Shown here: positions 42,939-45,388 of the stretch, one piece after another
Layout of the letters: each line of letters opens with the position of its first letter
Position numbering within the stretch: position 1 is the first letter of the stretch
Assembly: GCA_002786025.1 (NCBI GenBank)
Contig: NHNW01000016.1
Location: 434,001 to 498,000 of the forward strand
Length of the DNA stretch: 64,000 bases
Direction: 5' to 3'
Source of the DNA: Zasmidium citrigriseum
Lineage: Eukaryota > Ascomycota > Dothideomycetes > Mycosphaerellales > Mycosphaerellaceae
Notes under the pieces: model-generated
Seen by the model: the letters and a program-made list of their open reading frames with translations, nothing else
Databases searched by the model: none
What the model was told of the DNA's origin: nothing
Position numbers and translations under genes: made by a program

Positions 42939-43222
42939 AAACGATGATCTGAGATATGGGATGGAGAGCATGGAGAAGGTGGTATGGTATGTGTACATAG
43001 ACCTGTCTGCTACTATCGAGGATGGAAAGAAGTTCTCTATGGAACCCTTTTCCTTCTTTTCTTTGTGCTTCACTTTCGAAGCAATGCGCTCCGTTACTAT
43101 CTTTCTAAAAGCCATTCCAAGCTCTTCCTCAGCAGAGGCTCCGTCCAATCCTCTGTCTTTCAATCTCATGCTCCAACAGTCTCGTCCAAGCTGATGGCCC
43201 TTGGCAGAGATCTCGCGGCGAT

Positions 43223-45134
43223 CTAGTGCTCCGGCTCCTGCTTGATGATGACCTCCTTCTTGACCTTCACCTTCTTCTTCTTCCGCTTGGGCTCCTCGAC
43301 ATCCGGCTCGGTCTTGATGAGCACCTCCTTCTTGATCTTCGTCTCATCAGAATCGCCTTCTTCGTCGCTGTCGTCCTCGCGTCCGCGCTTGTGGCCCCTC
43401 TCGCTCAGCCAGTCGTCGATCCGCTGCTTCTCGCGCAACTCGTCTTTTTGAGTGCAGGCCCGGCGGGCTCGCTTGGCGGCTTTGCGAGCAGCTTTGGCTT
43501 CCTTGTCGGCTTGCGCTTCTTGTCTAGAGTTCTCGGTTGCGATCCTCTCCTTCTGCTTCTGCTTCTTCTGCTGTTGGCTGGCCTGCTTCTGAGACTTTCC
43601 CATCCGCTGGTTCTTGACGTTCTGCTCTTCCTTGGACAGCGGTGCCGGCTTCTGGACCTCGATTTGCTCCTGGACCGCTGGGTGCTCCTCGGTCTCCGTA
43701 TGCTCCTGGAACGGTGCTTTCTGATGTTGCGCTGCCTTCTCCCGCTCGAACTCTTTCACCTCCCTCTCGAGCTCCCTCTGCTCCTTCTTCGACAGTGGCT
43801 CCATGTCCTCCTCGGCCTCGGCCTTCTTCATCTCCTCCACATGTCTCTTCGCCTCCAGCTGGCGCTCAGTCATCGGTCCATCGTTCTTTCCCTTATTCTG
43901 CTTGTTTCCATTCCTGAACTTTGGGTCCGATTGCTTTCTCGCTTCAAGATACTCCATTGCAGCCCGCAATGCTTCCTCCGCGGCCTTTAGATCTTGCGTC
44001 TCATTGATCTTCTCCCTGACCATTGCCTTGAGCGATCTGCTCATGTGTATCGTTTCCATTTCGTGCTGAACTTCGGGGCGAATGTTGTCCAGCTTGTCAT
44101 ACGAGCGCAACGGCATGGGGTGCTGAGACAGCTGAGCGGTAAGGGCTGCTTGGGCTTCGCGTCTGAGCTGCTTCTTCGATTTCGGGTTGTTGCTGAGGCC
44201 GATGGGTACTGGTGCCTGTCCAGGTTGGGACAGCACCAGTTGAGACTCCCGGCCTGACTCCAAGTTTGCTTGCTCTATGGCTCTGCGCCTCTTCCGGCGT
44301 TGTTTCTTGTTGAGCTGTTCGAATGGCAAGGTCATATACGGTGGTAGCGACTTCGTATCCTGCTTCTTGGGCTGTTCATCTTGCGACTTATTGCCATCCT
44401 TGGAAGAGTCGACATCATTCTCGCTGTCACCAACGAGATCGATGAAGCTGCTCTCGTCAAAGTGCACCTTCTTTTTGCTCTCTCCACTTGGCGTGTCCTC
44501 CGACTTGATGCACGAGTCCAACTTGACCTTCTTGGGAGGCGGCTGTGGGGAGCTAGAGTCCTCAGACTCATCAAGGGCCTTCTCCAAGGCAGTCAAAGGG
44601 GTGGCTGGTCTCTCGATGATCTCAGAGTCGGAAGACTCATCGGATGATATCTCGATGGGTTCGGCCGGCTGCTGGTTGGTCTGCGTGACGGTGGCAGGCT
44701 GTTCGGTCACCGGAGGGATGTCGGTGAGCTGCCTGTCATTGACATGCTCCTGCTTGATCTTGGAAGCGGTTGGCGTCTCGAACTTCCTCAGGCTCAGCGG
44801 ATCTTCTGGACTCTCTGGCGAGGGGGCAGCGGCACGCTGGCGCTTCCGCTCGCGGTCCTTCTTGCTGTCGAAGCCGCCGAGCTTGATCTTGCCCGCGGTA
44901 TTGGCATTGGCTGCCGGCTTGACGGTAGATGAAGTCGGTGTAACCTGTGTGCCGATTGGCGCCTTGGAAGGTGGTGAAGATGGTGTCGCGGGCATGTCGA
45001 CGACCTGCTGCTTGTCCTTCTTCTGCTTCTTCTTGATCGGCCCGTGCGACTTTCTCGCCGCGTTCTCTGGAAAGGTATCAGCTGATGGTCGTGAAAGAGG
45101 GAGAGGATGGCGGGTACGTACTGGTTCTGGCCAT
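43223..45134 (-). CDS. Nuclear protein with histone H3-like N-terminus and many SUMO motifs, 618 aa, two exons
   Basis: Exons 45134-45122 (13 nt) and 45066-43223; the 55-nt intron has a GTACGT donor, a CTGAT branch and a CCAG acceptor. Unspliced reading stops after 18 codons, so splicing is needed. The spliced start is MARTKNAARKSHGP. After removal of Met (Ala follows) it would match H3 residues 1-13 at A1, R2, T3, K4, A7, R8, K9, S10 and G12. The rest is low-complexity, highly charged and helical with nuclear-localisation-type clusters (KKQRRKRRRA, KRKKKKVKVKK). Six SUMO-acceptor consensus sites are visible (IKQE 108, IKSE 191, IKKE 582, IKTE 588, VKKE 606, IKQE 612), as are two SUMO-interacting motifs (IEISSDESSDSE 142, FIDLVGDSEND 212). 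I recognise no enzyme domain. Chromatin association is inferred. Confidence 0.75.
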
Positions 45135-45388
45135 GTCGCCGTCGGTCGACTGGTGATGCTGCAGAATGATGAAGCGGAGTTCTCATGAGAAAGTGAGCTG
45201 GTTGCCTAGCGCCGCCAAAACTCCGCGAAAATGTCAGTGAAGGAAAGAACGCAAGTTCTTGGCATGCAAACGCAGAAGGAAGGAGCAGCCAGCGGGCGAA
45301 TTCACATCCTCAAACTAGCGTGTCCAGCACGCTTCCCATTTCACAACTCATATTCTCAAGTACACATTACCGCTTCACCAAAAGGCAA

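Follow-up and report, generated by a model that had tools for sequence, protein, structure and literature searches.

A spliced gene of Zasmidium citrigriseum encodes a protein whose N-terminus resembles the histone H3 tail

Introduction

Can a fungal protein other than a histone offer, at its own N-terminus, a tail that is mistaken for that of histone H3? Proteins that read the end of H3 grip the free Ala together with Arg2 and Thr3, and a gene of Zasmidium citrigriseum encodes an H3-like peptide at exactly this place, with ARTK directly after Met. The gene lies in a window of 64 kb (C57:434001-498000), which is the whole stretch of DNA analysed here and to which the positions below refer, unless a contig is named; the genome searched comprised 44.4 Mb in 148 contigs. 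We asked whether the gene model that yields this tail is sound, whether the likeness to H3 exceeds chance, whether it was inherited from a histone gene, and what the tail may do.

Results

Predicted splicing of a 13-nt exon to a long second exon creates the tail

A minus-strand open frame of 660 codons terminates at 43223. Joining positions 45134-45122 to 45066-43223 on this strand, as proposed in a preliminary description, gave a 618-aa protein beginning with MARTKNAARKSHGP and carrying no internal stop. The coding part of exon 1 (45122..45134, minus strand; ATG GCC AGA ACC A) has the start context GCGACATGG, and an in-frame stop at 45185-45183 precedes the ATG at 45134 by 17 codons with no intervening ATG. 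Intron 1 (45067..45121, minus strand) is 55 nt long, reads GTACGT...CTGAT...TTCCAG with a branch-like A some 12 nt upstream of its 3' end, and is inserted in phase 1 within the K4 codon. Exon 2 (43223..45066, minus strand) runs from the remainder of the K4 codon through the stop codon, and its first part (45023..45066, minus strand) supplies the remaining H3-like residues (NAARKSHGP) and leads into a lysine cluster (IKKKQ) that looks like a nuclear localisation signal by eye only. Read from the DNA without splicing, the frame of ATG 45134 gives MARTSTYPPSSPSFTTIS and then a stop, indicating that K4 is present only after splicing. Thus, the earlier claims that the intron splits the K4 codon and that the mimic exists only in the spliced message were both borne out.

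On the minus strand from 43000 to 45300, the donor at 45121 was the only GTRNGT match listed. Matches to the full intron motif are not rare in the window, numbering 12 on one strand and 20 on the other (32 in total), where 10 first-order Markov sequences averaged 8.4 per strand; further formal exon joins can also be written, for example from donor 45121 to an acceptor at 45081. We then scored codon usage with a measure trained on the other long frames of the window. Downstream of the acceptor, 27 codons (residues 6-32) scored 0.51 bits per codon, exceeding each of the 1,814 off-frame windows taken from those frames, whose in-frame windows averaged 0.18 bits per codon (n=907). The read-through before the acceptor scored -0.09 bits per codon in the same frame. 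Codon bias therefore starts right after the acceptor and is absent before it, which suggests that coding begins there and supports the splice. With the clean 618-aa frame, the donor, the branch-like site, the YAG and the codon bias all in agreement, the gene model with a 13-nt first exon is well supported. Upstream of the gene, a scan for bacterial-type promoters and terminators, a type unsuited to a fungus, returned nothing.

Nine of the first 13 residues are those of H3

After removal of Met, the tail ARTKNAARKSHGP is identical to H3 ARTKQTARKSTGG at 9 of 13 positions and differs at four, so the identity count given in the preliminary description, with the K4 and K9 contexts included, was reproduced. 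The shared residues are A1 R2 T3 K4, A7 R8 K9 S10 and G12, and both blocks stand in exact H3 register. AARKS equals the H3K27 context (A24-S28) in five of five residues, as against four of five for the K9 context TARKS; the ARKS block resembles K9 in its position and K27 in its letters. HP1-type chromodomains contact Q5 and T6 of H3, which are replaced here by N and A, and this counts against mimicry.

To put the likeness against chance, we drew 13-mers at random from the residue frequencies of the tail itself, and three of 4,000,000 reached at least nine matches (7.5e-7). Permuting the tail residues gave nine in 2 of 1,000,000 cases, and frequencies taken from residues 2-28 or from the entire protein gave it in none of 4,000,000 draws. 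With a typical number of some 12,000-15,000 genes, about 0.01 chance cases are expected per proteome when one motif in one proteome is considered, and the true number is probably lower, since N-termini are for the most part less basic. The sequence comparison thus makes pure chance within one proteome an unlikely source of the resemblance.

MARTK by itself is less special than the whole tail. A degenerate MARTK pattern had 26 matches in the genome, 20 of which encode MARTK, and besides H3 it heads three open frames of more than 200 codons (putative starts); an additional MARTK frame of 171 codons is presumably internal to an ATPase. The pattern MARTK..ARK, which is blind to spliced starts, matched once, in H3 itself. 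A phmmer search with the 24-aa tail against PDB chains of at least 20 residues returned none even at E 10, and the exact letters of the tail did not occur in the literature searched.

The protein is distinct from histone H3

Pfam scanning of the 618-aa protein gave no family at E up to 1, and hence no histone fold (PF00125). The H3 tail ARTKQTARKSTGG is near-invariant, and the four differing residues set this protein apart from it; on its sequence, the 618-aa protein is not a histone. Although it has 9 of its first 13 residues in common with H3, it lacks a Pfam match and also differs in intron position: the first intron of the H3 gene in the same genome, as read from the DNA, lies in codon R8 and not in K4. 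The codons for ART are GCG CGT ACC in H3 and GCC AGA ACC here. Comparison of the two 5' regions by blastn gave at best 16 bases (E 0.035), away from the start codons. Descent from an H3 gene was set aside on intron position, codons and missing 5' similarity. One copy of the gene was detected: a genome search at E up to 10 matched only the gene itself among 13 candidates scored.

The same genome holds other histone-like loci. TAG or TAA stops, as after RIP, occur in 38 of 49 histone-fold matches, for example in L004-L008 (C120, C1, C11, C61, C125), and L004 also contains a frame that we take to resemble a hAT dimerisation region. H3 sequences captured by hAT elements and killed by RIP have been published for Cercospora, Pseudocercospora and Sphaerulina (PMC6710886), and this Zasmidium genome may extend the range given there. 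Two further H3-type loci are L003 (C54:839693-840058) and L002 (C69:454892-455158): one has the frame MPPKKTSRKSTGGKAPQK, stop-free in its H3 matches and, as a guess, CENP-A or variant-like, and the other is 62% identical to H3 without stops. Among the chromodomain matches, 22 of 27 contain stops, mostly TAG, and these probably represent a RIP-affected family of chromodomain retroelements.

No homologue was found beside a conserved neighbour

We searched a database of 5.8 billion proteins. The full-length protein had no relative among the best 7,993 candidates by shared words, and residues 240-395 had none among 1,575 candidates at a threshold of E 10. As a control, a neighbouring plus-strand LAS17/WASP-like frame was used, for which 561 of 907 candidates scored at E up to 0.001. 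Its first 150 residues were 98% identical to a protein of Zasmidium cellare and 95% identical to one of Dothistroma septosporum, and its top eight matches included Zasmidium, Dothistroma, Pseudocercospora, Cercospora and Zymoseptoria, indicating that near relatives are covered by the database and placing the source fungus near Zasmidium, within the Mycosphaerellaceae. Conservation of the motif in orthologues had been suggested earlier as a test of the claim; no homologue was found in this database with its close fungal relatives, and there is consequently no sign of selection on the tail. The lack of homologues may reflect very fast evolution, presence in few species, a gene left unannotated or annotated at another length, or a miss of the word filter. 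Pattern matching in the collections viral_contigs and genome_contigs gave 56 and 357 stretches, respectively, none of them confirmed as a relative, which is expected for a fungal gene. A strongly coding, single-copy gene of 618 aa for which no homologue was found thus stands beside a neighbour conserved across fungi.

The remainder of the protein is lysine- and glutamate-rich

The 618-aa protein consists of 13% K, 12% E and 8% Q, and the H3-like tail is directly followed by the basic stretch IKKKQKKDK. Six SUMO-type psi-K-x-E sites were counted in the whole protein (P 0.0044, shuffling). Four of them, starting from residues 582, 588, 606 and 612, fall within the last 48 residues (571-618; 43223..43369 with the stop, minus strand), a clustering with P 0.0007 by shuffling. 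Stretches including IEISSDESSDSE and FIDLVGDSEND resemble SUMO-interacting motifs; a strict motif of this kind gave one match, IDLV. AlphaFold prediction of exon 2 from the single sequence (613 residues, where model residue 1 is protein residue 6) gave a mean pLDDT of 54.7 and a pTM of 0.25, with helices later on and no secondary structure before model residue 156. This weak model (pTM 0.25) suggests that the N-terminal tail is probably flexible; the lysine- and glutamate-rich protein looks largely disordered and is probably nuclear.

Discussion

How could such a tail work? The gene structure, sequence likeness and composition were computed; the removal of Met, the nuclear location, and all binding and modification described below are inferred. 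In the most likely mechanism, methionine aminopeptidase would remove Met, as expected from Ala2, and expose A-R-T-K-N-A-A-R-K-S-H-G-P. The exposed tail could then compete at, or substitute for, the H3 tail on proteins that grip a free Ala1-Arg2-Thr3, and candidates for these are PHD fingers, an LSD1-type demethylase and a Bir1-like protein with its BIR domains. The genome contains 23 PHD matches and 27 chromodomain matches (5 without stops), counted as matches and not as genes, and two BIR matches within one ORF. The lysine of ARKS, corresponding to H3K9 by register and to H3K27 by AARKS, may be methylated and read by a chromodomain. SUMO-type sites together with acidic hydrophobic stretches would retain the protein in SUMO-rich nuclear assemblies. 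A role of the tail as decoy or recruiter appears feasible, and it may plausibly be a functional mimic of the kind seen in PAF15, SNAG or Sgo1. That the tail of a disordered nuclear protein takes the place of the H3 tail at its readers, or rivals it there, is a tentative reading, to which we give somewhat less than an even chance. A more elaborate form of it is unlikely: a two-block H3 decoy, with a K4 block and an ARKS block suiting K9/K27 writers, would be made from the spliced message only, a retained intron would thereby silence a chromatin competitor, and the decoy, combined with the SUMO-type sites, would link readers of the H3 tail with SUMO assemblies.

The strongest competing explanation is coincidence, in which the K/R-rich nuclear-localisation N-terminus of a disordered, rapidly evolving protein matches most of the H3 tail by accident, acting as an import signal only or having no sequence-specific role. 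The adjoining IKKKQKKDK shows that this N-terminus is basic anyway, MARTK begins three other long open frames, and conservation was not demonstrable in the protein searches; moreover, a genome scan covers many motifs in many genomes, so that coincidence is compatible with about 0.01 cases expected per proteome. It is opposed by the exact register of both blocks and the rarity of equally good tails, at most three in 4,000,000 even at the tail's own composition. We consider coincidence to have a nearly even chance of being right, and the competition of the tail for H3 readers was put slightly below it because conservation is missing.

Two other explanations fare worse. If translation started at Met29 of an unspliced message (MPATPSS...), or if another 5' exon were used, the H3-like tail would never be made. 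The unspliced frame is indeed open with its earliest ATG at residue 29, and alternative joins exist, including that from the same donor to 45081; yet the latter would leave a 40-nt intron without a branch-like site, the sole listed GTRNGT donor is correctly placed, and the codons just after the acceptor out-score every off-frame window while the upstream read-through is unbiased. An erroneous gene model is therefore improbable. Still less probable, and in our view very remote, is that exon shuffling brought the 5' end over from a histone H3 gene, so that the likeness was inherited and not selected. A short MART exon bounded by a phase-1 intron would be a natural donor for such a transfer, and hAT transposons captured H3 sequences in related fungi, according to the report cited above (PMC6710886). 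Such an origin is opposed by the interruption of this genome's H3 at R8 instead of K4, by the unlike ART codons, by an H3 likeness that runs past the intron into exon 2, and by 5' regions sharing at best a short match outside their start codons. Taken together, the likeness of the tail is real in sequence, and its function as a mimic is possible; the interpretation given in the preliminary description is partly supported.

N-terminal histone mimicry is already known; here it would be unusually complete, and in a fungal protein, if real. SNAG sequences resemble H3 in structure more than in letters, unlike the 618-aa protein, which resembles H3 in letters. We know of no K9-like block in Sgo1, and of no K4 block with a free N-terminus in internal mimics such as Swi6 and the EHMT2 substrates. 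In PAF15 and DPPA3, VRT occupies the site of the UHRF1 PHD that is used by H3 1-ART-3 (PMC11187062). An ART-like block, the N-terminal VRT in PAF15, is thus shared with our protein, but it is the only block described in the accessible text of that paper and is internal in DPPA3, whereas the 618-aa protein also has ARKS in H3 register. Two further papers describe N-terminal H3-like peptides, as found here: the SNAG domain of GFI1/SNAI1, which mimics the H3 tail in the LSD1 cleft (PMC5896174), and the tail of Sgo1 (Shugoshin 1), proposed to mimic the binding of H3 phospho-T3 to survivin (PMC12420818). Internal mimicry, in which a motif is bound or methylated like H3 itself, is described for the autoinhibitory sequence of Swi6 (PMC7192584) and for EHMT2 substrates with an H3K9-like motif (PMC10611923). 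No report of a fungal N-terminal H3 mimic was found in the literature searched, most subscription journals lying outside its scope.

As far as the cited papers could be consulted, the H3-tail mimics that they describe reproduce one of two parts, the ART-like end or an ARK-type block. If the likeness is a coincidence, it is a useful caution for motif scanning. If the tail does compete for H3 readers, this cellular protein, with both blocks in the register of H3, would be a natural decoy of unusual completeness and a case of a fungal gene mimicking a histone within its own cell.
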